This document shows positions 20,586 to 47,600 of a stretch of DNA of 64,000 nucleotides, piece by piece. The stretch spans positions 1-64,000 of the forward strand of contig CAIWNE010000059.1 in the NCBI GenBank assembly GCA_903913915.1, written 5' to 3'. The translations under genes and the position numbers were made by a program. The notes beneath the pieces were generated by a model. The model did not search any database, had not been told where the DNA came from, and saw only the letters and a program-made list of their open reading frames with translations. The DNA comes from an uncultured Opitutia bacterium (GTDB lineage Bacteria; Verrucomicrobiota; Verrucomicrobiia; Opitutales; UBA953). Numbering within the stretch: position 1 is the first letter of the stretch; the number at the start of each line of letters is the position of its first letter.

Positions 20586-20718
20586 GATGCGGTACAATTT
20601 GCCATGAAGACCCGGGCTTGGAAGAGCCAAATGGCGGAGCCGTGCCACCAGGCAGGCGGCATGGCTCAGCGGGACAGGGGCGGTTCGGGCAGTCCGCCCA
20701 TGCCCCGGCTCACGCGGA

Positions 20719-29207: not shown

Positions 29208-29336
29208 CGGGCTGAGATGCAAACAGGGCCATAACCCATGTCGAACCCAACGTAGGCGAGTCTCAACCCCACACCGGACTCCGTTCATGCCATCTGAGCC
29301 TCAGGGCCTCTGAGCCTCCGAGCCTCTCTCAAAAAG

Positions 29337-29372
29337 TGGCGGAGAGGATGGGATTCGAACCCACGATTCACC
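29337..29372 (-). other. tRNA-Ser-like 3' fragment, probable attachment site
   Basis: On the minus strand this stretch reads as the T-arm and acceptor end of a tRNA including the terminal CCA (GTGGGTTCGAATCCCATCC, then TCTCCGCCA). The sequence is like the 3' end of tRNA-Ser. The 5' half is absent: bases 29373-29478 show no tRNA body. A tyrosine recombinase gene starts about 105 bp away, so this is best read as the att core left by integration into a tRNA-Ser gene. Confidence 0.75.
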
Positions 29373-29478: not shown

Positions 29479-30636
29479 ATGGGCTCACTCCTCAGACAGA
29501 TCGAGCGTTCGAAAAACTGGTTGGCGCGCTTCCGCGCATCGGACGGAAAATGGCTGCAACGCACCACGGGCACGCCCGACAGGAAACTTGCAGAGCAGAT
29601 CCTGCAGCAGTTCGAGAACGACGCGCGCACGGCGGAGTACAACGGCGGGCTGGTCATCAAGAAGGTGGTCGATAACGCGATGGACATGCATCAGCGCGCG
29701 ACGGGCCGCAGCCTGCGCTTCCCCACCCTGCGCGCTTTCTTCGCCGACTTCCTGACGTCGAAGTCGATCAACAAGAAGACGGCCACCATCGCCTCCTACC
29801 GCAAGACCGTGAACCTGTTCCTGGAGCACATGGGCGCGGAGGCCGATAAGCCCGTCATCCGCGTGCAGCCGGCGGACGTGCAGTCCTTCATCAAGGCGCG
29901 CATGGCCCAGGGCGCCGCGCCGGCGACGGTCCGGCAGGGCATCGTCGTGCTGCGGATGATGTTCAAGCGGGCGCTCGACGAGGGCATGTGCGCCATCAAC
30001 CCCGCCGCCACGGTCGAGGTCCCCGACGGCGAGAGCCAAACCAAGCTCCCGTTCACGGACGAGGAAGTGCAGCGCATCCTAAAGGCCTGCCCGAGCGAAG
30101 AATGGCGTACCTTGGTCTTCCTAGGGTACTACACCGGCGCCCGTATGGGCGACTGCCTAGGGCTCACCTGGGCGTCCTTTGACCTCGGGGACACCCCTAA
30201 GCTCACCTATAAGCAGAAGAAGACCGGCAAAGGCTCCAAAGGCTGGGTCACCATCGCCGTCCACCCTGCCCTCCAGAAACGCCTCTTGGAGTGGCGCCAG
30301 GCCTCCAAGGCCGGCAAGGACGGCCCGATCCTCCCCGGCCTCACCGCAAAAGCCCTAGGCGGCAACACGGGCCCAAGCACCCTCTTTGTCCAGGTCGTCA
30401 AGGCAGCCAGCATCGACCCCTGCTACGCCACCACCGGCCGGAGCAAGCAGCCCCGGAAATGCTTCCACAGCTTCCGCACCACCCTCGTCACCCGGATGCA
30501 GAGCCTCGAGATCCCGCAAGAAGTCCGCATGAGCATCGTCGGCCACGCCAGCGCCGACGTCCACAAGGGTTACAGCCAGGGCGAATGGAACTCGGTCAAG
30601 TCCGCGATCAACAAGCTGCCGGACCTTGGAACCTAA
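29479..30636 (+). CDS. Tyrosine recombinase (integrase)
   Basis: 385 aa. An N-terminal Arm-type/SAM-like region is followed by a catalytic domain with Arg222 in TGARMGDCLGL, His330-x-x-Arg333 in FHSFRTTLV, His356 in GHAS and nucleophile Tyr365 in HKGYS. All core residues of an active tyrosine recombinase are present. It lies 105 bp from a tRNA-Ser 3' fragment, so it should catalyse site-specific integration and excision of the island in that tRNA gene. Confidence 0.92.
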   Translation: MGSLLRQIERSKNWLARFRASDGKWLQRTTGTPDRKLAEQILQQFENDARTAEYNGGLVIKKVVDNAMDMHQRATGRSLRFPTLRAFFADFLTSKSINKKTATIASYRKTVNLFLEHMGAEADKPVIRVQPADVQSFIKARMAQGAAPATVRQGIVVLRMMFKRALDEGMCAINPAATVEVPDGESQTKLPFTDEEVQRILKACPSEEWRTLVFLGYYTGARMGDCLGLTWASFDLGDTPKLTYKQKKTGKGSKGWVTIAVHPALQKRLLEWRQASKAGKDGPILPGLTAKALGGNTGPSTLFVQVVKAASIDPCYATTGRSKQPRKCFHSFRTTLVTRMQSLEIPQEVRMSIVGHASADVHKGYSQGEWNSVKSAINKLPDLGT

Positions 30637-30710
30637 GGAAATCAAGGTTGCGCAAGCTAAGGCGACCGAAACACGCTATTAGCCTGCTAAAAGAGTTGGT
30701 AATTGAACGT

Positions 30711-30724
30711 AGATTCGTGAATCT
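30711..30724. promoter_or_regulatory. Palindrome in front of the four-gene operon
   Basis: AGATTCGTGAATCT is an inverted repeat with 6-bp arms and a 2-bp centre, ending 14 bp before the ATG of the first operon gene. It is the only symmetrical site in the 102-bp intergenic region and is a candidate operator. Confidence 0.35.
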
Positions 30725-30738
30725 TCTCGACCATTACC

Positions 30739-31674
30739 ATGCCCGAATCAGACACCCTTAAAGAACGGCATTGGAGCAGATTTAATAATATTCTGTTCCC
30801 TCTCGTACTTGCCCTAAACCTTGGCCTGACACTGTTCCTGATGGTCGGATTGAAGGACTATGACGAAATGAAGCGCGAACTCGTGGACAAGTCCGCGCTA
30901 GTACAAGAGGCGAGCGCACTTCGTTTCGAAATCTCTACGCTGAAGTCTGAACGCGATTCGCTTGAAGCAGCCCGCAAGGAACTCTCGGCGGTTCAGGCCA
31001 AACTGCTCGAAGCCAAAAGTACCATCGCGAAAGCCGAAGCAGCCAACCTGACCCTAGACGCATTGCGCAATGAAGAGTCGTCCCTTAACGCCCGACTCGC
31101 CGAAAGCAGAAAGAACATCAACAACCTCATCGAAAGCCGCGGCAAATTGACGGAGGCCGAAAAAGCCTCTGATCAAAAGATTGCCCGCGCCGCGGCAGCT
31201 GCGGAAGAACTTGCCTCAACCCAAGCAAAGTTGAGCAAGGCGCTCTCTGAGCTCCAAAAAACGCAGTCAAGTCTCGAAGAAATCGCGAAGGCAAAAGCGC
31301 TTCTTGATGCCATAAATGCGGAACTATCCATAAAAAAACCCGAGCTCGCAGCAGTACGCGACGAACTAACGGCGCAAACAAAAGCCAGATCCGAAGCCGC
31401 CGCGGAACTTGCGGTCATTGCAAAGAAAAAATTTGACCTTCAAAGCCTAGATGATGCCCGCACAGAACACGTAAGGTTGGTGACAGAGCGAGCGTCGCTC
31501 AAGTCGGAGATCGCACAGATCTCAGGACAAAAAGAGGCAACGCAAAAGGAACTAGATGCACTTTCGAAAAGCCTAGGTCAGGCACAAGGCCAAGCCAGGA
31601 TTCTGTCCACCCAGAAGGCCGACCTAGAGTCGGAAATCGCTGCCCTACGCGCAGCAATCAACAAAACAAAATGA
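30739..31674 (+). CDS. Membrane-anchored coiled-coil protein (operon gene 1)
   Basis: 311 aa. One membrane helix at about residues 17-37 (NILFPLVLALNLGLTLFLMV) is followed by ~270 residues of nearly continuous heptad-type Ala/Glu/Lys/Leu coiled coil (for example ARKELSAVQAKLLEAKS). There is no enzymatic motif. Topology suggests a long cytoplasmic rod on the inner membrane. Its TGA overlaps the next ATG (31671-31674), and that product also has an N-terminal membrane helix plus coiled coil, so the two could form a hetero-oligomeric rod. I do not recognise a named family. Confidence 0.7.
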   Translation: MPESDTLKERHWSRFNNILFPLVLALNLGLTLFLMVGLKDYDEMKRELVDKSALVQEASALRFEISTLKSERDSLEAARKELSAVQAKLLEAKSTIAKAEAANLTLDALRNEESSLNARLAESRKNINNLIESRGKLTEAEKASDQKIARAAAAAEELASTQAKLSKALSELQKTQSSLEEIAKAKALLDAINAELSIKKPELAAVRDELTAQTKARSEAAAELAVIAKKKFDLQSLDDARTEHVRLVTERASLKSEIAQISGQKEATQKELDALSKSLGQAQGQARILSTQKADLESEIAALRAAINKTK

Positions 31675-33674
31675 ACTACTCATTCCTGATTCAGGCCGGG
31701 CTATGGGGCACATCCTCTGTCCTTTCAGCCCTAGCAGTAACTCAGTACCTAAACTTCAGGCGAAAAGAGAAGAACCTACCTGCTGCCTGCGAATTTGAAG
31801 CACTCGAAACAGAGTTAGCACTTCGACGCTCCCAGCTAAGAGAAGCCAACGAGACCATCGGACGGGCGCAAATCGTACTTACCCACGCTGAAGAGACACG
31901 CAAATGGATTGCGGAACAGAAAGGTGAACTAACAAGAATAGAGGCTGACCGCAAAGCCCAAGAAGGGCTTAGAGCCGAAGTCATCACCCAACAGGCGAAA
32001 TTGGACGCCCTGATGTCCGAACTAGCCCGAGCAGGGAAAGAAATCGCGGCAGAAGAGGCCAAGGTGGTAAATCTTGCGACACAGAAAGCGCAACAGGAGG
32101 CCGCGGTAGAAGAACTCAAGGAGCAGCTCATGAAGCTGCAACAGGAGATCGCCGACCGCGCACTTCATCTGAATGCGATCCGTTACGACATCAACCAGGG
32201 AGAAATCGAGCAGAAGAGACTGATCTCCATGCAGGAGTTGACAGAAAAAGCCTTAACCAAGGCGAAGGTCGCCTACGAGGCCACTCTTACCGCCATCGAC
32301 GAGGCAAAACGCAAACTCGCTGACACCGAGACCAAGACATACGAGCTGGAACAGAAGGCCCAGCGACTTCAGAAGGAAATCGACAGTCTTGAAGTCTGGA
32401 AAAATACGCTGGCAGCACTGCTTCAGAAAATTGAAGCCGACCTCAAGCGAGTGCATCCGCAGGCAACGGGAGAAGACCGCTATCGTGACCTATGGGAACC
32501 AGTCCCCTTCGAGGAACTCCCGGTAACGCATATCGCCAAGCCGAGGGCGCGAGAAGAAGAGCGCCTTGCCCTAGAAAGGACTTCGGACTACCTCGAGTCC
32601 CATAGCCTACAATACCCCAAGCGTGTACTGAACGCTTTCCATACTGCACTTAAGACCGCCGACATGTCACCACTGGTGGTGCTGGCAGGCATCTCTGGTA
32701 CCGGCAAATCCTTGCTGCCTAAGCGATACTCGGAAGCCATGGGCATCCATATGATTTCCCTTGCAGTTCAACCCCGGTGGGACAGCCCCCAAGACCTTTT
32801 TGGATTCTTTAACCACCTCGAAGGAAGATATAAGGCGACGGAACTGGCCAGGGCCATGGTGCAGTTCGAACGTTATAATCGGAACGACTGGAAACTGCCC
32901 CAGGGATGGGATCACGCCAGAGATGACCGCATGCTTCTCGTCTTGCTGGATGAAATGAACCTCGCCCGCGTTGAGTACTATTTCTCAGAATTCCTGAGCA
33001 AGCTGGAAACAAGACGGTCCATCCTCAAAGACGAAGATAATCCGTTAAGCCGCGCCGCAGTAGAGATTGCGCTAGACACAGGAAGCCTGCAGGACGGGGA
33101 ACATAACATCCGACTATACCCGGGACGAAACATACTCTTCACCGGAACGATGAACGAAGACGAATCGACGCAAAGCCTTTCGGATAAAGTTCTCGATCGT
33201 GCCTGCGTGCTCCGTTTCGGGCGGCCAGCGAAGATGGCATCAGCAATCGAACAGGAGCCTGAACAGCCAGAAGACAGAGGACTTGCATATGACACATGGA
33301 GGCTTTGGTGCGAAAACGACCTAAGCGAATCCGACGAGCGTAAAGTCAACCAGTGGATTGGAGAGCTTAACGACGCTATGGAGATGATCGGAAAACCCTT
33401 CGCGCATCGCGTGCATCAGGCCATACTTGCTTACGCAGGCAACTATCCTCGTGACAATAACCGCATCAACCTGGCGATGGCAGATCAGATTGAGCAGCGT
33501 ATCATGCCCAAACTGAGAGGCATCGAACTCGAAGGAAACCAAGATGCTCTTGATGCGGTCAAAAGAGTCATCGCTCAGGCAAATGACGCAGCGCTCATGA
33601 AAGCGTTCGAATCGGCGACCGAGCATCACTCGGGCACATTCCTCTGGCGAGGCCTGGATCGCACGAAGGAATGA
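31671..33674 (+). CDS. Membrane-anchored coiled-coil McrB-like AAA+ ATPase (operon gene 2)
   Basis: 667 aa. Residues ~6-28 (LIQAGLWGTSSVLSALAV) are hydrophobic; ~40-270 are coiled coil; ~320-520 form a McrB-type AAA+ domain with Walker A GISGTGKS (339-346), Walker B LLVLLDEMNLARVEYYF (from about 420), and a sensor/arginine region FTGTMNEDESTQSL...LDRACVLRF. Classic McrB proteins use GTP and an N-terminal DNA-binding domain; here that domain is replaced by a membrane-linked coiled coil. Overlaps genes 1 and 3 by ATGA. A motor or sensor working with the DUF2357-like partner, as McrB does with McrC, is the inference. Confidence 0.75.
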   Translation: MNYSFLIQAGLWGTSSVLSALAVTQYLNFRRKEKNLPAACEFEALETELALRRSQLREANETIGRAQIVLTHAEETRKWIAEQKGELTRIEADRKAQEGLRAEVITQQAKLDALMSELARAGKEIAAEEAKVVNLATQKAQQEAAVEELKEQLMKLQQEIADRALHLNAIRYDINQGEIEQKRLISMQELTEKALTKAKVAYEATLTAIDEAKRKLADTETKTYELEQKAQRLQKEIDSLEVWKNTLAALLQKIEADLKRVHPQATGEDRYRDLWEPVPFEELPVTHIAKPRAREEERLALERTSDYLESHSLQYPKRVLNAFHTALKTADMSPLVVLAGISGTGKSLLPKRYSEAMGIHMISLAVQPRWDSPQDLFGFFNHLEGRYKATELARAMVQFERYNRNDWKLPQGWDHARDDRMLLVLLDEMNLARVEYYFSEFLSKLETRRSILKDEDNPLSRAAVEIALDTGSLQDGEHNIRLYPGRNILFTGTMNEDESTQSLSDKVLDRACVLRFGRPAKMASAIEQEPEQPEDRGLAYDTWRLWCENDLSESDERKVNQWIGELNDAMEMIGKPFAHRVHQAILAYAGNYPRDNNRINLAMADQIEQRIMPKLRGIELEGNQDALDAVKRVIAQANDAALMKAFESATEHHSGTFLWRGLDRTKE

Positions 33675-35356
33675 GCCAAGCCGGCGCCATCTTCTTCGAT
33701 GACCCCTGGGGGTTTCTGCTATACGCCGGAAACCGACCCGCGAACACTGCAAGCGTAGATGGCGCAGGTACGCCGCGTTCACTCACTGCATTTAGTTCAA
33801 GACCTCCTAGATGGATCGATGGTGCCGGCCTTTCCCCGAAGGCGAGCTTAGCTTTCCGCTGGAGCGGGCAGGACTACCAATCCTGGCATATGCCCTGCAG
33901 CAATACGGCCAAGGATGGCAAACATGATCTCGACCTCCGCTGGACCATCAACGGGGAGGAAACAAGTCGCATAAGGCAACTAGGGCTACTTCACAGACCG
34001 CCCGAAGATGCGGAAGAGCACAACCCTGACGCCCTCCGCCAGGACTCATTAATCAATTGGATGGTTCATTCCTTCCAGGAGTTGGGCCACACCGAGGCGA
34101 CCGAGGAGGATTCCGACATCCGTACGATGATTCGCCGAACTTGGAAAATGGCTCAGGAGATCTGGATTGAACCCAAGTCTTGCGAACCACGGATGGAGCT
34201 AATTATCAAGATGGCCCAAGACCGGCACCTCATCCGGGCCTTGCAAGCCATCGGCGAATCGCCTCGGCGGATTCTGATCCGAGTCCGCGAATCGACGCCA
34301 GTCGGACGCGTCCAAGAGATGGACGCAGCATGCATAAGGCACTACGCTAAGCTTCCTGGAAATTCACCTGCCCAGAAGGCCGGCCCTCGCCAAACGCTCC
34401 TCGCGGTACAACGGCGCCCGTCGTTTGACACACTTGAAAACAAGGTAGCAGCATGGACCATGGCAGCGCTTCTGAAGCGGGCCGAATCTTGGCGACGCAA
34501 ACAGACTAAAGTCGCCCTTGCTGGAACACGCGCCCGCTCCGTAGCCCAACTAGCGAAAGAGAACCAGCTACTCCTCAATTCAGAGAACCTTTGCGACATC
34601 AGGTACGCGAGCCTCGCCCATCCCGCCAGCGCCAACTACCCCCTGACTATGGAGACGCGGTACAAGACCGCCTACAAGGCCTACCGCGAACTCCTACGAT
34701 ACCAGAAAATCAAGGATGACGCATGGACATGGCGCAGGCCACTCTGGTCCGAGACGGTCGGGCAGCTGGTCAATTGCTGCCTGCTTCGGCTCTGGCCAGG
34801 GGCAATCCTAAGCACCCCCTTCTACCGCAAGGAAGCCGACCGCGGCCGATGGCTGGCATCGCAAGCCTCCGCTGGGCCATTCAAGACCCCGTGGGGTCAG
34901 GCTTATCTCATAGACAGCCACGACCTGGAATCATGCAACCAGGAGTCGGTGCGCAGACTGTTGGACGTCGAAGACAGCCCGCTTTCCAGCATTGGGGCAA
35001 CCGGCTGCGACCAAGCCCTTTGGTGGCCAGAAAAATCAGCCATCTTACCGATCTGGGCGACTATCTGGACGGATGACACAAACACTTGGCAAGCTTCCCT
35101 GCCCCGCGCAGGACAGGCCTTGGTGCGGTATGCATCTCAACCGAACACTGCGCTTAAACGTGTCGGCGGCCTTATCATTACTGCCCATGCGCAAGCTGAC
35201 CGGGCCACGATGGACTCCGATCATTCATCAGGGAAATACATCCATGGCATACGCTTGCCAATGAGCACCGGCATTCTCGAACCCCAAGGCTTCTCACAAG
35301 CAATCGACTTACTCGACAAATCACTCATCGGGGCAACGGAGGCACTTTTTAGATGA
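33671..35356 (+). CDS. DUF2357-like protein (operon gene 3)
   Basis: 561 aa, no signal or membrane segment. The centre (about residues 220-300) has RRPSFDTLENKVAAWTMAAL preceded by a basic segment, like DUF2357 proteins that pair with McrB-type ATPases in place of McrC. The C-terminal ~200 residues contain WWPEKSAILPIWATIW and TALKRVGGLIITAHAQ; I see no unambiguous PD-(D/E)XK triad, although a diverged nuclease core cannot be excluded. Start and stop both overlap neighbours by 4 bp, implying fixed stoichiometry with the ATPase and gene 4. The DUF2357 assignment is pattern recognition only. Confidence 0.5.
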   Translation: MSQAGAIFFDDPWGFLLYAGNRPANTASVDGAGTPRSLTAFSSRPPRWIDGAGLSPKASLAFRWSGQDYQSWHMPCSNTAKDGKHDLDLRWTINGEETSRIRQLGLLHRPPEDAEEHNPDALRQDSLINWMVHSFQELGHTEATEEDSDIRTMIRRTWKMAQEIWIEPKSCEPRMELIIKMAQDRHLIRALQAIGESPRRILIRVRESTPVGRVQEMDAACIRHYAKLPGNSPAQKAGPRQTLLAVQRRPSFDTLENKVAAWTMAALLKRAESWRRKQTKVALAGTRARSVAQLAKENQLLLNSENLCDIRYASLAHPASANYPLTMETRYKTAYKAYRELLRYQKIKDDAWTWRRPLWSETVGQLVNCCLLRLWPGAILSTPFYRKEADRGRWLASQASAGPFKTPWGQAYLIDSHDLESCNQESVRRLLDVEDSPLSSIGATGCDQALWWPEKSAILPIWATIWTDDTNTWQASLPRAGQALVRYASQPNTALKRVGGLIITAHAQADRATMDSDHSSGKYIHGIRLPMSTGILEPQGFSQAIDLLDKSLIGATEALFR

Positions 35357-37824
35357 ACGAATTCGGCCTAGGTCTAGATTTCCTCGGCGCCAAACCATGG
35401 TCAGCTGTCGTAATTCCCGGACGGCGGATTGAACGTCCCAAATCATTTCAAGCCGGACTGCCTACGGCACTGCTGCCCCTGCAACGAGGCGAAAGGCCGC
35501 CCACTGGATCGGTCGCCGATGAACATCGTCGCGGTCGTGCATTAGCGTGGCCCCCCGAGGCCCAGGTGCCTCCCCTCGGAGATCCGGTGAACGGCTCTGG
35601 GCGCATCCCGTTCTGTGCGCCCTTCGAGATGCTATGTAAGGGAGAAAAGGAGTGGGGGAAACTAACCGACCAGCAGGTAGCATGGAAGCCTGATGGAGCG
35701 ACAGAAGTCTCCCTAAGCGCGGCCAAGCTCATCGCCCAAGAAGTCGATGCTTTCGCCCAGGCAGGCCAAAAAACCGGGCTGGCAGTACCCGACGCACTTG
35801 GCGTCGGCGGCCAGCAGGCGATTCTTTCCGCCGTAAGAGCATCGAATCTTCTACTGATACCTCGATCAATTGCAGCCGTGATCGGATACTGCAGAGCCAG
35901 TGAACCCACATTGCCGAAAGGACATATTACTGTCGTAGACACCAGCTTCGGCGCCTGGTCTATCGCCAAAGTTCCTGTGGACGTCAGAGAAGGACCAGAT
36001 GGCAAGGAGTGGAACGTGCCGGTCAGCGACAACCGCCTACGTCGAAATAAACTAAGCCCGACCGGCTGGGGCATCCTCCGAAAGGCTTTACGTACGCCCC
36101 TGCCGCAAACTCTAACCACAGGATGGGCGACAGAAATACTTACCGGAAAAACCAAGCTAAACGCTTCCAGCACGGAAGTTACGCTCCGACTGAATGAATC
36201 CTCATACCCTTGGCAATCTCCGCTTATCGGCGAAAGCTCACTCGTGAAGTCGCTCGAGGAGATATCCAATGAAGACGACAAAGTCACCTGCGATAGCCCC
36301 TATAAACGCAACCTCGGGCTTATGGTCATCGGGCCGCTGGCCAAGACCCGCTTTGACGCGTCTAGCCTAACCCAGCTAATTCAGCTTCGTCTTGGCTTGG
36401 AGCTAATTGAAGCCGAAGAGAGCTACGTCGCATCCGGCGCAGCCTGGGCAGCCGCAGCCACCGTGAACGGCTGGCCGACATGGCTGGAAAAGATGGAGGC
36501 ACTAGAGATTCACTATGTCGGCCCTGATAATCTCGGGAACCAGGCAAATCAATGGATGGAAGTCCTCCCCAGCATGCTAGTCGATGCTGGCAGAGAATAC
36601 AGGAACCCAGAATCCATCACAGGCGTCAAACTTCGCGCTGGAAGCGACATAGTACGCATGTGCCTCAGACGGCCTAATTCTACCGAAGAAGCAGCGTGGT
36701 CTTATCGCGAAATCAGCACCAAGCCTGGCAAGCAACATCGAGATGACGTGCCGCTTCAGATCAACGTGTGCGCAAGGCCGGGACAAGGGTTCGCCGAAGT
36801 GACGGTTTCATCCATAACTGATGGCCTTTTCCAGAGCGTCCTAGACTGGGAAAACATGCAGGAGACAGGGCAACCACCCGAACTGCCCAAGGGTTACATC
36901 GAGAGAGCTGTAGAACTGAAATCGGCACCGGAACTCTGGAGCAACTGCCGAGACGACATGATGAAACTACGGAAGTGGCTCGATGACGACGAGAAGGAAG
37001 ATGACATCATTGAGGCATGCAGGTCTCTGGTTAGACGGCTTAACAAGACACTCTCCGCGGAGAACTATCAGAAAGGTTACGGTAGGATGGTTAAACCCGA
37101 CCAGTTCGCGCTCTACACCCCAATGGGCAGGGATACCAGCCCGACTGGACCGCAGGCCCAAGAGGCTGCCAACCTTATTGAACGCCTTAAGACGGCGATG
37201 CGTAAATGGATCCGTGCTAACCCGGATGCGAACAAAGGGGAGAAATGGATCAAGAAAACCGCTGGATGGCTCTATCTCGGCTGCCCGTCCGAATTTACCA
37301 AAGACGCAATACGCGACATCACCGGAAACCACGTGGCCGTCGAGGAGGTCCACCTACACATCGCAGGCCTATGCATACATTCGGATACCGATTGCATCGA
37401 TTTCTTTGATTCGTTCACCCGGAAGATGCATGAATCAACCGCACCAAACAACTGGATGAAGGCCCTAAGAAACCTCATTAAGCTAAACGAGGATTCGCTA
37501 AAGACAGTCGACGAGGATTTAGTTGAGAAAATGTTCGCACAGTCGGTCGATAAACTTGCGTGGGCCTATGAAAACGACCGGCCGCAAATCACCTTCAACA
37601 CACTTGAAGCATTATTTTTCCTTCTGAAATTCCGAAGATATCATAGATCGTTCATAACGAAAGGCAGTGGCCTACATAAACGGGTGAATGACCTATGCCA
37701 GCGCATACAGAGAGATACGCAAAAACCGAAAACAGAACACTTAGCCGAAAAGTTCGTCACATTTCTCAACTGGGAAGGCGATAACGATGGACTGAGTGAC
37801 GTACTGCAAGGAGATGACGACTAG
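35353..37824 (+). CDS. Hsp70/actin-like N-terminal region, large unknown protein (operon gene 4)
   Basis: 823 aa. Residues ~140-210 read like an Hsp70/actin-fold ATPase core: TGLAVPDALGVGGQQAILSA, LLLIPRSIAAVIGYCRA, then the phosphate-2-like strand-turn HITVVDTSFGAWSIAKV. A later segment (NLGLMVIGPLAKTRF and YVASGAAWAAAA, residues ~320-375) fits the adenosine-loop half. The C-terminal 400 residues are mainly helical and unrecognised. Ends in an acidic tail and overlaps the convergent SNF2 helicase stop by 4 bp. Actin-like proteins with McrB/DUF2357 partners are not a standard defence architecture I can name. Confidence 0.5.
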   Translation: MNEFGLGLDFLGAKPWSAVVIPGRRIERPKSFQAGLPTALLPLQRGERPPTGSVADEHRRGRALAWPPEAQVPPLGDPVNGSGRIPFCAPFEMLCKGEKEWGKLTDQQVAWKPDGATEVSLSAAKLIAQEVDAFAQAGQKTGLAVPDALGVGGQQAILSAVRASNLLLIPRSIAAVIGYCRASEPTLPKGHITVVDTSFGAWSIAKVPVDVREGPDGKEWNVPVSDNRLRRNKLSPTGWGILRKALRTPLPQTLTTGWATEILTGKTKLNASSTEVTLRLNESSYPWQSPLIGESSLVKSLEEISNEDDKVTCDSPYKRNLGLMVIGPLAKTRFDASSLTQLIQLRLGLELIEAEESYVASGAAWAAAATVNGWPTWLEKMEALEIHYVGPDNLGNQANQWMEVLPSMLVDAGREYRNPESITGVKLRAGSDIVRMCLRRPNSTEEAAWSYREISTKPGKQHRDDVPLQINVCARPGQGFAEVTVSSITDGLFQSVLDWENMQETGQPPELPKGYIERAVELKSAPELWSNCRDDMMKLRKWLDDDEKEDDIIEACRSLVRRLNKTLSAENYQKGYGRMVKPDQFALYTPMGRDTSPTGPQAQEAANLIERLKTAMRKWIRANPDANKGEKWIKKTAGWLYLGCPSEFTKDAIRDITGNHVAVEEVHLHIAGLCIHSDTDCIDFFDSFTRKMHESTAPNNWMKALRNLIKLNEDSLKTVDEDLVEKMFAQSVDKLAWAYENDRPQITFNTLEALFFLLKFRRYHRSFITKGSGLHKRVNDLCQRIQRDTQKPKTEHLAEKFVTFLNWEGDNDGLSDVLQGDDD

Positions 37825-40730
37825 GCGATTATCCATCTGATACAGAAAATCTGAGACGTCGTCTCTTTCGGCCTTAGTTTATCCTTACTGGACTGGATAA
37901 TAGCATCAGACCTCTCCCTGAGAAGGTCGACCTGAGCCATGTACCTTTCACGTTCCCTCAGCATCTGTACACGAACATCTTCCCTGCTCTCGTTCAAATC
38001 GATTTCTTTGGCGAAGTCGGTGCAGTCGGCAATCTGCTTAGAGAGCACGGCAAGCTTCTCTCGAAGTTCATTGTAATGGGACATGAACTTGGCCTCCTGG
38101 TCGGCCGTCCACGACTGTACTTTCGCGAACTCCTCCTGCATGCACTTCTTATTCCGTTCGTCGCGCCCCTTCTTTAAAGACGCAGCCATGGCGGAGTCAA
38201 ACTGGTCCAACTTCAAAGCGATGTCAGCAGTCAGACCAGCATCTAATTTTAGCACGGAAGCCTTTAAATCGAAAAGCGTCCTCGTCAAATCCTCAGGAAG
38301 GACATCACCAGAATCAAGACAGGCCGCCAATAACAGATGGTCTTCTCCAGCATTACCGGGATAATCAAAGGATAGTTTCGAGAGACGTAACCATCCTGAT
38401 TTCCCCCGAAACGAGAGAAGCCCTGAGACCTGTCGATCATGACCAGATAGGTCAAAAGAGAGACATGCGGCAGGCACGTCCATGTCCAAACCCCGTGCGA
38501 TAACCTCGCCGGCCAATGGGTGACCTATACGATAAGGGTGCACCATTGAACCTGGATCCTTGCTCAACTCATAGATTCCTTCTTGGGCAGCGATCGACCC
38601 TAGCATGGGCCGCTTGAGATGGAACCTATGTTTCTCATCATCGAAGTCAGCAAGGTCCCTAAGTACATATCGCGTAAGTACCCAGAGCCTACGTGCGACT
38701 ACATCTAGAGAACGGGCGGCATCAATTCGAACCTTATCAATGACAGATTGATCAAAATGACTCAGGAGATCGACCTCCGCCTGCCGCCTGGCAGCGTCAA
38801 TTTGTTGCTGATTCTCCTCCCCAAGCTTACGGAATGCAGCAGCAATTTCTTCAGGCCTCCTGCATTCCTGAATGATCTGCATCACTCTACGCTCAAAGCC
38901 AACACCTGCCGCGTCGACTCGACCGAGCACCTCGTCCGAGGCTCCGAAAACTCCGTTGAAAACTTGGAATTTTTCCTGCAAAAGTTCGTACACACGTTGG
39001 TCTGCTGCATTAGTCTTATTTACGAAATTGACCACGACTACGTCGCATTTCTGACCGTAACGATGGCAACGGCCGATTCTTTGTTCGATACGCTGCGGAT
39101 TCCAGGGAAGGTCATAATTAATAACCAGGTTGCAGAACTGAAGATTGATCCCTTCTGCCGCTGCTTCGGTCGCAATCATGATATCTGCAGTATTCCTGAA
39201 GTAGTCAACAAGCGCAGCGCGCATATCCGCAGTCTTAGAGCCGGAGGTCTTGCCAGGATTCTCCTCGATCCATTTTGCATAGATCTGCCTGGAGAGATCG
39301 TCAGAGTTTGAACCGTTAAAAAGTACGACTCTACCCTTATACTCCGACTGCTCCAGCTCAGTCAGGATATAGGACTGAGTGCGTTTTGACTCCGTGAAAA
39401 TGATGGCTTTTTTATGTACAGATCCCTGCCCTTCTTGGGCTTTTGCGGCAGCATCAAACCCAGCCTTAAGCGCCTCGAGAAGCACCTTACCCTTGGAATT
39501 CCTGCTCACGGAACCAGCAAGCCGTGCATACTCCTTTAGCTGCTCTAGTTCTAGTTTTGCCTCGGCCACTTCTGAGGCACTTAGGATTGGGTGTTGCCGC
39601 TCGTCCCCCTCATCATCGTCATCACCTTCGTCCCACTCATCGATGATTTCCGGCAATTCATCGACATCCTCAACCAATGCAGCAGGCAGTGCCGACTCAC
39701 CCTCGCCCCTGGCAATAGTTTCCGACAATGATGCATAGAGCCCCTCTAAGGTATGAGCTATGGCAAAACTCGATGAGGCCAGAAGTTTGCGGAGCACCAT
39801 AGTCATCAATGCTCTTTGCCTATCTGGCAAAGCATATAACCTAGGTCTACGCAGGTATTCATCTACCATCTCATACAGCCTGACTTCGTCAGGGTTTGGT
39901 TCGAAGTCTTGGACCAAAGCCAGCCGATTCGTGAACTTTACGAACTGACGCACATCCCTACGAAGCGTTCGCTTGCACACGCTGAGAAGGCGTCCTCGAA
40001 GCTCCTCTTGAACCTCCTTCGTCATCGCGCCCCTGGCGTAGCGCTCCCTGAATCCTTCGACGGAACCAAACTGATACTCATCAATTATGCTAACCAAGCC
40101 GTAAAGTTCGAGGAGTGAATTCTGCAGAGGCGTAGCCGTAAGCAACACCTTGAAATAAGGTTCAATTGCCTTCTTGATACGACGAGCCTGCTTGTTGTTG
40201 GGTTTGTATACGTTGCGGAGGCGGTGAGCCTCATCAACAACCACCATATCCCAGAAACCTGGCCCGCCATTTTGCGGATTGATATAGAACTCGTTCTTCG
40301 CGGCAAAGTTATAGGAGACAATGATGATAGCGTCCTGACGGAATGGGTTAAAGTTCCCCTGCTGCGCCTGAAGCCGGATATCCTTGTTCTCAAGAATGAC
40401 TGACTTTAAGTGGAACTTATCCATCAACTCCGAACTCCATTGTTTCCGGAGGTTAGCTGGAACGATAACCAACAGACGACGCTTACGCTCCGCCCACTTC
40501 TGCGCCAACAACAGGCTGGCCTCAATCGTCTTACCAAGGCCGACTTCATCCGCAAGGATAGCACCCGCAGCGATAGGGGATCGAACAGCAAACATGGCCG
40601 CTGCAACTTGGTGAGGATTTAAGTCAACCTTGGCATCGCTCAAAGCCCGGGCAAAGGCTTCGGGAGTGCCGATTTCGGCCCTGCGCTCCAGCTCCATGGC
40701 CAGGAGCTTAGCATGATATGGGGTGCTCAT
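37821..40730 (-). CDS. SNF2/RapA-like DEAD-box helicase
   Basis: 969 aa. Superfamily 2 SNF2 motifs are complete: LADEVGLGKTIEA (motif I), IVPANLRKQW (Ia), VVVDEAHRLRN (II), LLTATPLQN (III), and in the C-lobe IIFTESKRTQSY, ATEAAAEGINLQFCNLVINYD and RIEQRIGRCHRYGQ (VI). An acidic insert (DEWDEGDDDDEGDE) separates the lobes, and the C-terminus is coiled coil. An ATP-driven nucleic-acid translocase; RapA/HepA-like forms occur in DISARM and other defence islands. It converges on the four-gene operon with a 4-bp overlap. Confidence 0.9.
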   Translation of the reverse strand: MSTPYHAKLLAMELERRAEIGTPEAFARALSDAKVDLNPHQVAAAMFAVRSPIAAGAILADEVGLGKTIEASLLLAQKWAERKRRLLVIVPANLRKQWSSELMDKFHLKSVILENKDIRLQAQQGNFNPFRQDAIIIVSYNFAAKNEFYINPQNGGPGFWDMVVVDEAHRLRNVYKPNNKQARRIKKAIEPYFKVLLTATPLQNSLLELYGLVSIIDEYQFGSVEGFRERYARGAMTKEVQEELRGRLLSVCKRTLRRDVRQFVKFTNRLALVQDFEPNPDEVRLYEMVDEYLRRPRLYALPDRQRALMTMVLRKLLASSSFAIAHTLEGLYASLSETIARGEGESALPAALVEDVDELPEIIDEWDEGDDDDEGDERQHPILSASEVAEAKLELEQLKEYARLAGSVSRNSKGKVLLEALKAGFDAAAKAQEGQGSVHKKAIIFTESKRTQSYILTELEQSEYKGRVVLFNGSNSDDLSRQIYAKWIEENPGKTSGSKTADMRAALVDYFRNTADIMIATEAAAEGINLQFCNLVINYDLPWNPQRIEQRIGRCHRYGQKCDVVVVNFVNKTNAADQRVYELLQEKFQVFNGVFGASDEVLGRVDAAGVGFERRVMQIIQECRRPEEIAAAFRKLGEENQQQIDAARRQAEVDLLSHFDQSVIDKVRIDAARSLDVVARRLWVLTRYVLRDLADFDDEKHRFHLKRPMLGSIAAQEGIYELSKDPGSMVHPYRIGHPLAGEVIARGLDMDVPAACLSFDLSGHDRQVSGLLSFRGKSGWLRLSKLSFDYPGNAGEDHLLLAACLDSGDVLPEDLTRTLFDLKASVLKLDAGLTADIALKLDQFDSAMAASLKKGRDERNKKCMQEEFAKVQSWTADQEAKFMSHYNELREKLAVLSKQIADCTDFAKEIDLNESREDVRVQMLRERERYMAQVDLLRERSDAIIQSSKDKLRPKETTSQIFCIRWIIA

Positions 40731-40779
40731 CCTGCAATACTTCCAATAAAAACTTGGGGCAGGTCAATCGTTCGAACCT

Positions 40780-40809
40780 TTGGAAAGTCGGAAACTACTC
40801 TGATATGCT
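40780..40809 (+). promoter_or_regulatory. Possible sigma-70-type promoter for hsdM
   Basis: In the 202-bp region between the divergent helicase and hsdM genes, TTGGAA (40780-40785) and TATGCT (40804-40809) are 18 bp apart on the plus strand. A transcript would start near 40816, giving a leader of about 115 nt. This is a loose consensus match. The rest of the region is AT-rich without other recognisable features. Confidence 0.3.
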
Positions 40810-40932
40810 AACCGCCAGCCATAAAAAGAACTAGATAGGAGAATTGTAACTCAATTAACCACCAATGAGTTGCCTCCAGCATCATCCAGGGTATCCATCT
40901 AGGACTGCCCCTCAGGGCCACCCCTTACCCAG

Positions 40933-43365
40933 ATGCCGATCAAGAAGTCTGACCTTTATTCCTCTCTCTGGACCGCCTGCGACTCCCTCCGAGGAGGCAT
41001 GGATGCCAGCCAGTACAAGGACTACGTCCTAACCCTGCTGTTCATCAAGTACGTCAGCGACAAGTACGCGAACAGCAAGGACCTCCGCCCTGCTGTCCTC
41101 ATCCCTAAAGGGGCCAGCTTCGCCGACATGGTAGCGCTCAAGGGCAAGAACGACATCGGCGACAAGATCAACAAGCAGATCATCGGCCCCCTTACCAAGG
41201 AGAACGAACGTCTGGCCCGCAGCGACTTCCCGGACTTCAACGACCCCAACAAGCTGGGCGAAGGCAAGGCGATGGTCGATCGCCTGACTGAACTAATCAG
41301 CATCTTCCAGAAGCCCGAATTGGACTTTTCCGGCAACCGCGCCGACCACGACGACATCCTGGGTGACGCCTACGAGTACCTGATGCGTCACTTCGCATCG
41401 GAAAGCGGCAAGAGCAAGGGCCAGTTCTACACCCCATCCGAAGTGAGCCGGATCGTCGCGCACGTCATCGGCATCTCTCCGAAGAACGCTAAGGCATCGA
41501 CCACCGTCTACGACCCTACCAGTGGCTCGGGCTCGCTGCTCCTCAAGGTGGCAGCGCAGTCAGGTACGCGCATCACGATCGAAGGCCAGGAGATGGACGT
41601 CACGACCGCCGGCTTGGCCCGCATGAACATGATCCTTCATGACTTCCCGACCGCCACCATCGCCAGCGGGAACACCCTGTCGGACCCCAAGTTCAAGGAC
41701 GGCAATAAGCTTCGGACCTACGACTACGTCGTAGCCAACCCGCCCTTCTCGGTGAAAACCTGGACCACCGGGCTGACTCCCGAGAACGACCCGTATGAGC
41801 GCTTCGCCTGGGGGATTCCTCCAACGAAGCAGGGCGACTATGCCTTCCTGCTCCATATCATACGTTCCATGAAGAGCACCGGGAAGGCCGCCTGTATTCT
41901 TCCCCACGGCGTCTTATTCCGCGGGGGCGCTGAAGGCGTCATCCGCACCCAGCTCATCCGATCTGGCTACCTGAAGGGCATCATTGGTCTTCCTGCCAAT
42001 CTATTCTACGGCACCGGCATCCCTGCCTGCATCCTGGTCTTGGACAAGGAGAACGCCGCTGCCCGCAAGGGAGTCTTCATGATGGACGCCTCCAAGGGCT
42101 TCATGAAGGATGGGAACAAGAACCGCCTCAGGGAGCGAGACATCCACCGCATCGTCGACACCTTCACCAAGCAGTCAGATGAAGCCAAGTTCGCACGCAT
42201 GGTGCCTGTGGCCGAAATCGCCGATCCGAAGAATGACTTCAATCTCAACCTGCCGCGCTACATCGACACGACGGAACCGGAGGACCTCCAGGACATCGAC
42301 GGACACCTTCGTGGAGGCATACCTGAACCTGATCTGATCGGTAAAGATAGCCTTATCGCCCCTTACTGGAAGGTCCTACCCACCGTCTACAAGGACCTGT
42401 TCGAGTCAGCAGGCCGCCCAGGATACGTCCGGCTCAAGATCCCGCAATCGGATGTCAAAGCGGCCATCCTTGGCCACCCGGAGTTCGTCGCCTTCCAGAA
42501 GAGAGCCACCAGGGGCTTCACGGAATGGCGCCAAGCGACCACGCCGCGTCTCACTGCATTCGGCAAGGGCGGACACCCAAAGGCGTTGATCACGGAAATC
42601 GCGGAGTCCCTTCTTCATGCTTATGGCAAGACACCATTGATTGACGCCTACGACGTTTACCAGCACCTGATGGACTACTGGGCAGAGGCCATGCAGGACG
42701 ACTGCTACCTTGTCGCCGCTGAAGGTTGGGCTGCCGAAACCCACCGAATTCAAGAAACTGACAAAAAAGGGAAGACGAAAGACAAGGGCTGGGCCTGCGA
42801 CTTGGTCCCCAAAGATCTGATCGTGGCTAGATTCTTTGCCAAGGAACAGGCCGCCCTTGAGATCAAGCAAGCTGAACTTGAGACCGCAACCACTGCCCTC
42901 ACCGAGTTGGAGGAAGAGCATTCAGGCGATGAAGGCTACCTTGGCACTCTCGACAAGATCGCCAAAGGCGAGGTCAACGCCCGCCTCAAAGAGATCAAGG
43001 GGGACAAGGAGTCAAAAGACGAGACTTCCGTGCTCAAACACTGGGTTGAATTGGCGGAGCGTGAGGCCGAACTCAAGCGCGAGGCGAAGGAGCAAGCCGC
43101 AGCCCTCGACGAACTAGCCTACGCAAAGTACCCCAAACTGACCGCAAGTGAAATCAAGACACTAGTGATAGAGGACAAATGGATGGCACGACAGTCGGCC
43201 ATCGTGCAGGGCGAACTCGACCGCGTCTCCCAAACTCTTAATAATCGTATTAGGCAGCTTGCAGAACGCTACGACACCCCGATGCCAACGCTAAGTGCGG
43301 AGACTGATAGGCTTTCGTCCCTAGTCGATCGTCACCTTAAGAACATGAGGGGTGATTCAAAATGA
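40933..43365 (+). CDS. hsdM: Type I restriction-modification methyltransferase subunit
   Basis: 810 aa. An N-terminal HsdM helical domain (LRGGMDASQYKDYVLTLLFI) precedes an N6-adenine methyltransferase domain with SAM-binding DPTSGSGSLLLKVA and catalytic NPPF (about residue 269), and GQFYTPSEV. The C-terminal ~300 residues (from about 500) are an unusually long extension with a charged coiled coil (ETATTALTELEEEHSGDEG, AEREAELKREAKEQAAA). It methylates adenine in the site chosen by HsdS. Overlaps hsdS by an ATGA junction. Confidence 0.93.
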   Translation: MPIKKSDLYSSLWTACDSLRGGMDASQYKDYVLTLLFIKYVSDKYANSKDLRPAVLIPKGASFADMVALKGKNDIGDKINKQIIGPLTKENERLARSDFPDFNDPNKLGEGKAMVDRLTELISIFQKPELDFSGNRADHDDILGDAYEYLMRHFASESGKSKGQFYTPSEVSRIVAHVIGISPKNAKASTTVYDPTSGSGSLLLKVAAQSGTRITIEGQEMDVTTAGLARMNMILHDFPTATIASGNTLSDPKFKDGNKLRTYDYVVANPPFSVKTWTTGLTPENDPYERFAWGIPPTKQGDYAFLLHIIRSMKSTGKAACILPHGVLFRGGAEGVIRTQLIRSGYLKGIIGLPANLFYGTGIPACILVLDKENAAARKGVFMMDASKGFMKDGNKNRLRERDIHRIVDTFTKQSDEAKFARMVPVAEIADPKNDFNLNLPRYIDTTEPEDLQDIDGHLRGGIPEPDLIGKDSLIAPYWKVLPTVYKDLFESAGRPGYVRLKIPQSDVKAAILGHPEFVAFQKRATRGFTEWRQATTPRLTAFGKGGHPKALITEIAESLLHAYGKTPLIDAYDVYQHLMDYWAEAMQDDCYLVAAEGWAAETHRIQETDKKGKTKDKGWACDLVPKDLIVARFFAKEQAALEIKQAELETATTALTELEEEHSGDEGYLGTLDKIAKGEVNARLKEIKGDKESKDETSVLKHWVELAEREAELKREAKEQAAALDELAYAKYPKLTASEIKTLVIEDKWMARQSAIVQGELDRVSQTLNNRIRQLAERYDTPMPTLSAETDRLSSLVDRHLKNMRGDSK

Positions 43366-44600
43366 ATACCGCCATCAAACATACCGATATAGGCTCAATC
43401 CCTGGGGACTGGGAAATGATGACATTAGGGACGTTGTTTTCGTTCACGAATGGGCTCAATGCGGACAAGTCAGCATACGGAAAGGGCACACCATTCATTA
43501 ATGTGCTGGAGCCGATTACTTACTCGCACATTTACGGCCCAGAAATCCCCGGGCGCGTACAAATCTCCGGCGAGTCAGCCATGGCATTTCTGGTGAAAAC
43601 TAATGACATAGTCCTCAACCGTACATCCGAGACAGATTCGGAACTTGGTCTCGCTGCCGTCTACCTCGGAGATAGGCAGGTAGTTTTTGGAGGTTTCGTT
43701 ATTCGCGGTAGGCCAATCAGCGACGCGCTAGATTCGAACTATTCCGGCTACGCGCTTCGCGCAAAAATGATCCGAACACAGATCGTTTCCATGGGACAAG
43801 GCGCAGTTCGTGCGAATATCGGACAACAGAACCTCAAGCGAGTATTAGTCACAGTTCCACCTAAGCACGAACAGAAGGCCATCGCCAAGGCCTTGGGCGA
43901 CATAGACGCCCTGATCGCCGCCCTAGATCGTCTCATCTCCAAGAAGCACGGTATCAAGCAGGCAACGATGCAGCAATTGCTGACCGGCAGGATCCGACTG
44001 CCTGGTTTCAGCGGCAAGTGGGAGACGAAACAGGTGGCAAGCTTTACAAATTGCGTCGCTGGCGGAACGCCAAGCACGCTTGTACGATCATACTGGGATG
44101 GCTCTATTAAATGGATGAGCTCGGGAGACCTGCACCTTAAAAGAGTAAAAGACGTGCCCGGACGCATCACTCAGGCTGGTCTTGATAATTCAGCTGCGAC
44201 GATTCTTCCCAAGCAGTGTGTGCTTATCGGGCTAGCTGGCCAAGGTAAGACCAGAGGCACTGTTGCAATAAACCTGACAGAACTTTCCACAAATCAATCA
44301 ATCGGGGCCATCCTTCCTAATGGCACATTCGTGCCTGATTATCTTTTTCACAACCTAGATAGACGTTACACCGAACTGCGTGAACTGTCATCCGGCGGAG
44401 GACGCGGTGGACTAAATTTGAAACTACTTGGAAGCCTCGAAATCCCGCTTCCTTCAATTCATGAACAAGCCGCGATTGCCAGCGTCCTCTCCGACATGGA
44501 CGCCCAGATCTCAGCTCTTGAAGCCCGACGGAATAAGACCAGAGCGCTCAAACAAGGCATGATGCAGGAACTGCTCACCGGAAAGACCCGACTCATTTAA
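43362..44600 (+). CDS. hsdS: Type I restriction-modification specificity subunit
   Basis: 412 aa with the classic two-TRD architecture. TRD1 occupies about residues 1-160, the central conserved helix follows (ALGDIDALIAALDRLI and KQATMQQLLTGRIRLPGF), TRD2 spans about 210-370, and a second conserved helix ends the protein (SDMDAQISALEARRNK, MMQELLTGKTRLI). The two helices are internal repeats that space the half-sites of a bipartite target. The target sequence cannot be predicted. Base composition of the TRDs is more AT-rich than that of hsdM and hsdR, as expected for exchanged cassettes. Confidence 0.93.
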   Translation: MNTAIKHTDIGSIPGDWEMMTLGTLFSFTNGLNADKSAYGKGTPFINVLEPITYSHIYGPEIPGRVQISGESAMAFLVKTNDIVLNRTSETDSELGLAAVYLGDRQVVFGGFVIRGRPISDALDSNYSGYALRAKMIRTQIVSMGQGAVRANIGQQNLKRVLVTVPPKHEQKAIAKALGDIDALIAALDRLISKKHGIKQATMQQLLTGRIRLPGFSGKWETKQVASFTNCVAGGTPSTLVRSYWDGSIKWMSSGDLHLKRVKDVPGRITQAGLDNSAATILPKQCVLIGLAGQGKTRGTVAINLTELSTNQSIGAILPNGTFVPDYLFHNLDRRYTELRELSSGGGRGGLNLKLLGSLEIPLPSIHEQAAIASVLSDMDAQISALEARRNKTRALKQGMMQELLTGKTRLI

Positions 44601-44611
44601 CCAAGACATCC

Positions 44612-47600
44612 ATGGCCGAGACCCCCCGATCAGAGCGCAAGACGCAGAACCGCGTCATCGACCTTTTCACCTCCCCAAATGGGCTTGGCTACCGTTACCT
44701 TGGGGAGTGGCACAAGCGCGGCAACAACCGCTGCGTAGAAGTCGGCCTCCTGCAAGCTAACCTAGCCACCCGCGGCTATGGCCCCGCCCAGATTTCAGCC
44801 GCCATCAAGAGGCTCGAGGACGCTGCCGACACGACAGGCATCAACCTCTATCAGGCGAACCTTCGGACCTACCAGCTCCTCCGTTACGGAGTCCAGGTCC
44901 AGACGGCTGTCGGTAAGGCGCATGAAAGCGTCAGCCTGATCGACTGGGATAACCCCGAGAAGAACGACTTCGCCTTGGCCGAGGAAGTCACCCTTAAGGG
45001 CGGCTATGAACGCCGGCCTGACATCGTGCTCTACGTCAACGGTATCGCCGTAGCCGTGATCGAGCTTAAGCGCGGCTCCGTCGAGATAGCCAACGGGGTC
45101 CGGCAGCTGATTACTAACCAGGAACCCATCTTCAACATGGGCTTCTTCAGCACCGTCCAGCTCGTCCTAGCCGGCAACGATACTCAGGGACTGCGCTACG
45201 GCACAGCCGGAACCAAGGAAGAGTTCTTCGTAACATGGAAGGGTGAAGGCGAAATCGAGGCGACTGACACCACCCCCGGAGCCCACCTGGATCGCCCTCT
45301 GGCCCAGATGTGCAACAAGACCAGGCTGCTGGACCTGATCCGCAACTTTATCATCTTCGACGCCGGTGTTAAGAAGGTCCCCCGACCCCACCAGTACTTC
45401 GGGGTCAAAGCCGCCCAGGAACGCATCGCTAAGCGCGAAGGTGGAGTGATTTGGCATACCCAGGGAAGCGGCAAGAGCATCCTGATGGTCCTCATCGCCA
45501 AGTGGCTCATGGAGCACGATCCGGAGGCCCGCATCCTCATCATCACCGACCGTGACGAGCTGGATAAGCAGATCGAGGGTGTCATGAGGAATGCCGACGT
45601 CATCCCCAAGGACTCAGAGTCTCCACGTATCACCTCGCGGGCTAAGTTGGTCGAGAAACTCGGAGCACACTCCCCTCGCCTGCTCTGCGCCCTCATCCAC
45701 AAGTTCGACACCTCGGACCTCAAGGGCGAGCCGCCCAGGATCTCCGGACGCTTCTACGTCTTCGTCGACGAGTGCCACCGCACCCAGGGCGGGGACATGA
45801 ACCGCCAGATGAAGCGCTGGATGCAGGACGCCATCTTCATCGGCTTCACGGGCACCCCCCTGCTCCGCAAGGACAAGCAACTGACGCGGGACGTATTCGG
45901 CACCTACATCCATACCTACAAGTTCCACCAGGCAGTCGCCGACAAGGTGGTCCTCGACCTAAAATACGAAGCCAGGAACGTCCCTCAGCAGCTCACCAAC
46001 CGCGAGTCCATCGATAAGTGGTTTGAGCAGAAGACCAAAGGGCTAAACGACTACCAGAAGGCCGTCTTACGCAACAAGTGGGCGACCATGGAATCCCTGC
46101 TCAGCGCCGGCGAACGCAAGCAGCGTATCATCGCCGACATCATCGAGGACTTCGGCCTCAAACCTCGCCTCAACAGCGACCGGGGAACCGCGATACTCGT
46201 AGCCGATGAGATCTACGACGCCTGCCACTACTTCAAGCTCTTCCAGAACACCGAGTTCGGCAGCCATGTGGGCATCGTGACCTCATATGAGCCGAATCCC
46301 AGCGCGATCTCATGCGAGCCACCTGGCAGCACCGAACGCTACAAGTTCGACGTCTACACAAACCTGGTGCTCAAGGAGAAAGTCAAGACCACCAAGCAGT
46401 ACGAGGATGACGTGAAACGCCGCTTTAAGGAGGAGCCGGCCAACATGAAGCTAATCATCGTCGTCAGCAAACTGCTGACCGGCTTCGACGCCCCAAGCTG
46501 CTCCTACATCTACCTAGACCACAGGCTCCGGGATCATACCCTCTTCCAGGCCATCTGCCGAACCAACCGCCTAGACGGTGATGACAAGGACTACGGCTAC
46601 ATCGTCGACTACAAGGAGATGCTGGGCAACGTCCAGGAGGCCCTCGCCGTCTACAACTCCGACGAGCTAGACACCGACCTGGGCGGAGGCGGCACCAACG
46701 ACGTCAACATCAAGAACTGGCTGCAGGAAGGCAGGAAGCAGCTCGATGATTCACTCGAGGCCCTGCGTCATCTCTGCGAACCCGTCGCCCACCCCCGCGA
46801 GATTGAGCAATACCTACGCTATTTCTGCGGAGACGCGGCCGACCCCGAAGCCCTGAACCAGACCGGCCCGATGCGCGACTCGTTCTACAAATCCGTCGCC
46901 GGCTTCGTCCGTGCCTATGCAGCCATCTCCGCCGACATGACCGAGGCGGGCTACACCGAGGCCCAGGCTGCCGCCATCCAGAAAGAGGTGGAGCTCTACA
47001 GCGAGATCCGTTCAGCCATCAAGAAGCACTCCGGGGAGGAACTGGACACTAAGCCCTACGAGGCCGATATGCGGCACCTGCTGAACACTTACGTCCAGGC
47101 CGATTCAGTCAGGGACTTGGGCAACCTAGGCAACCTCACCCTCACCGAGCTCATCATCAAGACCGGCATGCACGATGCCATCGCCCAGAAGCTTAACGCC
47201 AAGGGCAAGCTGTCCAAAAATGCGGTCGCTGAGAGCATCATCAACAACATCCGAATCACGCTGAAGCGCGACCAGCTCACCGACCCACAGTTCTACGAGC
47301 AGATGTCCAAGCTCCTGGACGACCTGATCGCCAAGCGCCGCGACGACTCCGCCGACTACGAGGCCTTCCTGAAGGATGCAGAATCCCTGGTGAAGAAGAT
47401 CTCCACCAAGCACTACAGCGCCGGGGTGCCCCAGGCCCTCCAAGGCCGCCCCTTGGCGACCGTGGTCTACAACAACCTGCCAAGGATCTTGGCAGCAGCG
47501 GCGCCTGACGCCACAGCCGACCAGAGCTCCGAATACGGCGAACGAATGGTGAACCTATCCCTCTCCATCGACCAGGTGATGCGCGAAAACGCCCCTGCCG

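Follow-up and report, generated by a model that had tools for sequence, protein, structure and literature searches.

A Type III-B-like CoCoNuT core on an integrase island, with two predicted membrane anchors and an adjacent DrmD-like SNF2 ATPase

What kind of system is encoded by the four overlapping genes at positions 30739 to 37824 of a 64,000-nucleotide stretch from an uncultured Opitutia bacterium (Verrucomicrobiota; assembly GCA_903913915.1, contig CAIWNE010000059.1, positions 1 to 64,000, hereafter the window)? An original prediction, made from the DNA letters, read them as a candidate defence system without a name. We show here that genes 1-4 correspond to CnuA, CnuB, CnuC and CnuD, the core of a Type III-B-like CoCoNuT, and lie on an integrase island. 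It is also probable, in our view, that this core is tethered to the membrane and that an adjacent SNF2 ATPase replaces the helicase CnuH as translocase. We infer a defence role, and likewise a cooperation of the SNF2 protein with CnuA-D. The operon has the following features (aa, amino acids; TM, transmembrane).

30739..31674, plus strand: gene 1, CnuA-like, 311 aa, ATG start; N-terminal TM helix and coiled coil
31671..33674, plus strand: gene 2, CnuB-like, 667 aa, ATG start; N-terminal TM helix, coiled coil, NxD McrB-like GTPase
33671..35356, plus strand: gene 3, CnuC-like, 561 aa, ATG start; N-terminal beta domain, DUF2357, nuclease-like fold
35353..37824, plus strand: gene 4, CnuD-like, 823 aa, ATG start; Hsp70-like nucleotide- and substrate-binding domains, then a helical C-terminus
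32688..32711, plus strand: CnuB Walker A (within GISGTGKS), core invariant in the gene 2 alignment
33153..33161, plus strand: CnuB NxD signature N495-E-D497, followed by E, invariant in the gene 2 alignment

According to the main text of Bell et al. 2024 (PMC11090510), CoCoNuTs are predicted anti-phage systems derived from McrBC, in which an NxD McrB-like GTPase is fused to long coiled coils. Type III-B is there composed of a separate coiled-coil CnuA, CnuB, a nuclease-inactivated CnuC, a separate Hsp70-like CnuD and CnuH, which joins a UPF1-like SF1 helicase to a Vsr-like nuclease. The same authors favour RNA as the target, and describe a HEPN or other nuclease as closely associated when the McrC nuclease is missing or inactive.

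The products of the four genes agree with this description. Gene 2 matches AAA_5 (Pfam, E 8e-5) and PDC-M26A (PADLOC, E 1e-40); no mention of the PDC-M26 label turned up in a literature search. Its Walker A and its GTPase motif, GTMNEDE (NxD), are intact and invariant among the aligned relatives, and profile scans give coiled-coil and SMC-like matches in the N-terminal half. Gene 3 matches DUF2357 (Pfam, E 8e-8), and its model, with a predicted local distance difference test score (pLDDT) of 90.4, matches McrC of the solved McrBC complex in Foldseek (6hz4_M, E 9e-10). The model is beta-rich over residues 26-107 and gives only weak matches to Ig folds, none better than E 0.27. Beyond residue 359, in the C-terminal fold, no D, E or K is near-invariant among 34 aligned relatives; for want of conserved acidic or lysine residues, the nuclease-like fold of CnuC is taken as inactive. 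For gene 4 the Pfam scan gave no match, and the AlphaFold2 model (pLDDT 84.7) matches DnaK (E 2.8e-10) and other Hsp70s in Foldseek, with both the nucleotide- and the substrate-binding domain covered. Past the Hsp70 region the C-terminus of this model is helical, with helices that are not separately matched to HEAT. Gene 1 has a coiled coil, a single TM helix and no other domain recognisable by Pfam, PADLOC or NCBIfam.

The genes share 4 bp at each of the three junctions, and all four open reading frames (ORFs) are complete and on the plus strand. Dozens of loci in several phyla show the same order CnuA-B-C-D, so that the arrangement is more than chance. We identify the locus as a Type III-B core because of the NxD GTPase, the DUF2357/McrC fold, the Hsp70 fold, the separate coiled coil and the conserved order. 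As CnuH is missing, it is classed as a CnuH-less variant and not as a full Type III-B member.

Much of the original prediction survives. The ORF coordinates confirm its three exact 4-bp overlaps, the AAA_5, PDC-M26A and DUF2357 matches its pairing of an McrB-like with a DUF2357/McrC-type protein, and the DnaK/Hsp70 match, obtained from structure where Pfam had none, its Hsp70/actin-like gene 4. The membrane-anchored coiled coils that it saw in genes 1 and 2 have hydrophobic N-termini conserved in relatives, profiles recover its integrase, SNF2 and type I restriction neighbours, and the collinearity in unrelated genomes that it proposed to check is found. Operon, protein classes and defence-island context are thus retained. 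The undescribed status is not: the four genes match a system already named in PMC11090510, where the set is the Type III-B core, and for these genes this is one of the outcomes that the original prediction had itself given as its refutation. The SNF2 gene, which the original prediction mentions only among the neighbours, proves to be the interesting part.

To describe the relatives, named genomes were scanned with the gene 2 alignment, giving 80 loci in Planctomycetota, Verrucomicrobiota/Lentisphaerota/Kiritimatiellota, Thermodesulfobacteriota, Pseudomonadota and Cyanobacteriota, the majority with CnuA-B-C-D. Scans with the single gene 2 sequence found no relative in the named genomes or in viral contigs; it was the alignment-based scan that succeeded on the named genomes. 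A plasmid tblastn with gene 4 gave no match. The SF1 helicase CnuH is present at 57 of 85 distinct loci, and its C-terminus is DUF559/MTES_1575 (Vsr-like) in all five that were scanned. Two other variants were seen. A Phycisphaeraceae clade (L054, L056, L057, L059, L062) has CnuB ORFs of up to 1675 aa and short CnuD-like genes, and neither CnuH nor SNF2 was detected at these loci. In L033 (2447-8424), FGE-sulfatase-like, TPR and caspase (Peptidase_C14) genes precede CnuA-B-C and there is no CnuH, possibly a protease-effector variant.

Both coiled-coil proteins are probably membrane proteins, judging from N-terminal hydropathy (2.44 at residue 18 of CnuA and 1.47 in CnuB of the window).

30790..30852, plus strand: predicted CnuA TM helix, about residues 18-38, by hydropathy
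31683..31751, plus strand: predicted CnuB TM helix, about residues 5-27, N-out/C-in by charge

The segments recur in the family. CnuB reaches an N-terminal hydropathy of at least 1.4 in 78 of 85 loci, and six of the seven exceptions begin at a contig end; the gene upstream of CnuB has an N-terminal TM helix in 66 of 71 cases by the same measure. Taking both proteins together, most exceptions come from truncated contigs. None of 14 other McrB-like proteins has such a helix. It is likewise absent from CnuB of a TerY-P-type CoCoNuT on a Klebsiella plasmid, and present in CnuB of Synechocystis PCC 6803 and Rhizobium tropici; a Type III-B-like operon is known in the culturable R. tropici strain CIAT 899. 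Lysine and arginine are in excess on the C-terminal side of the TM helix in 73 of 74 CnuBs (N-out/C-in), and with positive charges past the helix the GTPase domain should be cytoplasmic. In L038, L041 and L063, CnuA carries zinc-ribbon-like CxxC pairs N-terminal to its TM helix, which hints at a cytosolic N-terminus. In the main text of PMC11090510 the word "membrane" occurs zero times, and the uses of "transmembrane" noted there concern FtsB/CoCoPALM, EssC and legends. The double TM anchor is thus near-universal in the family and unmentioned in that main text; an earlier sighting elsewhere is not denied.

Directly behind gene 4, the window contains an SNF2 gene and a restriction cluster.

37821..40730, minus strand: DrmD-like SNF2 ATPase, convergent with gene 4; SNF2 and DrmD profile matches
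40933..47722, plus strand: Type I restriction HsdM, HsdS and HsdR, by Pfam/PADLOC profiles; possible source of nuclease activity

The SNF2 protein matches SNF2 (Pfam, E 3e-32), DrmD (PADLOC, E 6e-194) and NCBIfam DrmD_b, the last with 652 bits versus a cut-off of 950. Its stop overlaps that of gene 4 by 4 bp (37821-37824) on the opposite strand. CnuH was found neither in the window nor in the window genome (94% complete), using a search that gave a signal in three positive-control genomes. The same SNF2 family adjoins CnuA-D in three other loci, tail-to-tail with CnuD in L052 and L053, as in the window, and directly upstream on the same strand in L050. CnuH is undetected in all four SNF2-bearing loci, the genome of L050 (G440) giving only weak, generic helicase matches, and no CnuH-bearing locus has this SNF2 family at a comparable score. 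Over the 85 loci, 57 have only CnuH, four only SNF2 and none both. The hypergeometric probability is about 0.01 for all loci and about 0.03 for the 48 with full flanks, uncorrected for relatedness, and we regard the exclusivity as suggestive, not overwhelming. In L052, a PLD-like nuclease gene (19638-20690, minus strand) lies behind the SNF2 gene and is a possible nuclease partner.

The CoCoNuT-linked SNF2s fall in three places of the SNF2 tree, with those of the window and L050 on long branches. A single clade of all four is rejected (p-AU 8e-5, for a group defined by gene neighbourhood and tested after tree inspection), and the CnuB tree requires two or more changes of the SNF2 state. Given the three places, these SNF2s look independently recruited, and recruitment to CnuA-D looks repeated. 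The window CnuB is nested among loci with an SF1-Vsr CnuH in a tree built without the paper's own reference sequences, and the cyanobacterial loci fall outside its group. A first reading from L030, in which SNF2 was a simple operon member, was dropped in view of the several origins in the SNF2 tree and the usual home of the family in clusters resembling restriction-modification (R-M) systems.

For these same two reasons we keep the explanation in which the SNF2 stands apart from the Cnu genes, as a member of the Type I restriction cluster or of a different R-M module, next to a minimal CoCoNuT that has lost CnuH and either works helicase-free or is decaying. We consider this possible but rather unlikely. 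Several observations count in its favour and against an SNF2 acting with the core. The window SNF2 lies on the opposite strand, and hence outside the CnuA-D operon, and it adjoins HsdM. SNF2s elsewhere in the phylum share 39-49% identity with it, and many of them adjoin Mod/Res-like genes in places without CoCoNuTs. As the family is usually at home among Mod-like and Res-like genes in R-M-like clusters, and as defence islands shuffle, the adjacency could be island shuffling; in L052, HsdM/S also stand beside the CnuA-D operon. Only four SNF2-bearing loci are known, two of them (L050, L053) on cut contigs. No nuclease domain is found by Pfam in the four genes or SNF2, and no hidden nuclease in SNF2 by Pfam and NCBIfam, the only profiles used for that search. 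For the membrane part, the hydropathy of the window CnuB helix is borderline taken alone, the segment being conserved in relatives, and the CnuA topology is ambiguous by charge (25 versus 28), with net charge leaning N-in (45:13). On the other side stand the repeated placement of SNF2 next to CnuA-D, tail-to-tail or directly upstream, and its exclusivity with CnuH. In addition, no HsdM-sized ORF is among the ORFs listed for the upstream flank of L050. Against decay, all window ORFs and the GTPase motifs are intact.

The R-M-like home of the SNF2 family was itself seen often: a widespread HTH-SNF2-...-Mod-...-Res-like cluster with a DrmD-like SNF2 (L162, L163, L164, L165-L184) occurs on Rhizobium, Cupriavidus and Salmonella plasmids as well as in genomes of the window's phylum, and we found no name for it.

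If the membrane-tethered core does work with the SNF2, CnuB would form an McrB-type GTPase ring, cytoplasmic and held at the inner membrane by its TM helix. The DUF2357 stalk of CnuC would insert into the ring and stimulate GTP hydrolysis, with no cutting by CnuC. CnuA may be a second membrane rod, perhaps paired with the coiled coil of CnuB, and CnuD might recognise the target, either RNA or a nascent or unfolded protein. In ordinary Type III-B the ring would work with CnuH; in the window the adjacent DrmD-like SNF2 would take its place as translocase. Cutting would be left to a separate nuclease, for which HsdR of the same island, about 7 kb away, is the only candidate seen. Such a complex would keep watch over nucleic acid at the membrane as phages enter.

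A conserved double anchor points to the inner membrane, the entry site of phage DNA, as a testable site of action, and limits models that place the complex in the cytosol. A recurrent swap from SF1-Vsr to SNF2 would show that CnuA-D is a module accepting different motors, and would separate the sensing role of the core from its effector. More tentatively, these loci could form a separate envelope-anchored subtype, in which a DrmD-like SNF2 translocase for double-stranded DNA (dsDNA) took over, on three independent occasions, from the RNA/single-stranded-DNA-type helicase-nuclease CnuH. A machine predicted to target RNA would then act on dsDNA at the inner membrane; on present evidence we rather doubt this subtype.

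The operon is located at the left end of the island.

29332..29367, minus strand: tRNA-Ser(GCT) 3' end, probable island integration site, 100% identical over 35-36 bp in two same-genus genomes
29479..30636, plus strand: tyrosine-recombinase integrase, left end of the island; Phage_integrase (Pfam, E 3e-8), PHROG integrase (E 3e-50)

The window has no complete tRNA, and a direct-repeat search of it gave no convincing candidate for a second att copy. The integrase junction is 89% identical in a same-genus genome (G651), and around 30 kb the guanine-cytosine content drops from about 66% to 50-60%. Further along, a YgjP-like metallopeptidase gene (47722-48438, plus strand) directly follows HsdR, DNA primase-like and DUF3987/phage helicase-like genes (51828-54504, plus strand) suggest an integrative element of satellite or phage origin, and the same island has an AbiE-like toxin-antitoxin pair, AbiEii with a DUF6088 partner (54622-56252, minus strand).

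Two further explanations are both improbable. The window system might be a CoCoPALM, an McrB fused to an FtsB-like TM/coiled coil and linked to pilus assembly, since the hallmark given for CoCoPALMs in the main text of Bell et al. (PMC11090510) is an NxD GTPase preceded by TM and coiled coil. The scanned neighbours include no signal-peptidase or pilus family, however, CnuA and the Hsp70-like CnuD are separate here, and the tree neighbours carry a helicase-Vsr CnuH. Alternatively, the genes could encode a GTPase/Hsp70 machine that is bound to the membrane, serves in envelope or translation stress and sits on the island by chance. The Hsp70-like subunit and the anchors would suit such a role, and we found no experimental characterisation of Type III-B CoCoNuTs in the literature; the patchy spread (only 3 of 384 genomes in the window's class have a gene 4 relative), the integrase island and the association with restriction genes speak against it. 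Least likely of all is an undescribed defence system: no curated family names all four genes together, and for gene 2 PADLOC has no more than the candidate label PDC-M26A, but the CnuA-B-C-D architecture has been Type III-B CoCoNuT since 2024 (PMC11090510).

Compared with known systems, the locus is closest in content to the Type III-B CoCoNuT, with which it shares the separate CnuA, the NxD coiled-coil CnuB, the nuclease-inactive DUF2357 CnuC and the separate Hsp70-like CnuD; it differs in having an adjacent DrmD-like SNF2 instead of the helicase-Vsr CnuH. A Type III-C-like CoCoNuT operon with a TM-anchored CnuB was observed on the Synechocystis sp. PCC 6803 plasmid pSYSX (L185, 8929-18081). 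Type III-C resembles the window locus in the N-terminal TM of CnuB and in CnuC plus further genes in one operon, but it has a PLD nuclease gene and no annotated separate CnuA. Canonical McrBC has the McrB-type GTPase and the McrC-type DUF2357 partner; the window has NxD instead of NxxD, an inactive PD-(D/E)xK fold, the extra CnuA and CnuD, and membrane anchors. With CoCoPALM it shares the TM/coiled coil fused to an NxD GTPase, but it has CnuA and CnuD, and no pilus or signal-peptidase gene was found among its scanned neighbours. Type IV CoCoNuTs/Druantia I-II have an inactivated CnuB and a YprA-like helicase (PMC12458937), whereas in the window the CnuB motifs are intact and the helicase is an SNF2. 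The SNF2 matches the DrmD_b family of DISARM over residues 28-649, but below its cut-off, and PADLOC, run on the ten ORFs from 29479 to 48438, shows no separate DrmA, DrmB or DrmC gene. The CnuA-B-C-D set was thus already described in 2024; what goes beyond the main text of that paper is the double membrane anchor and the SNF2-bearing, CnuH-less variant.

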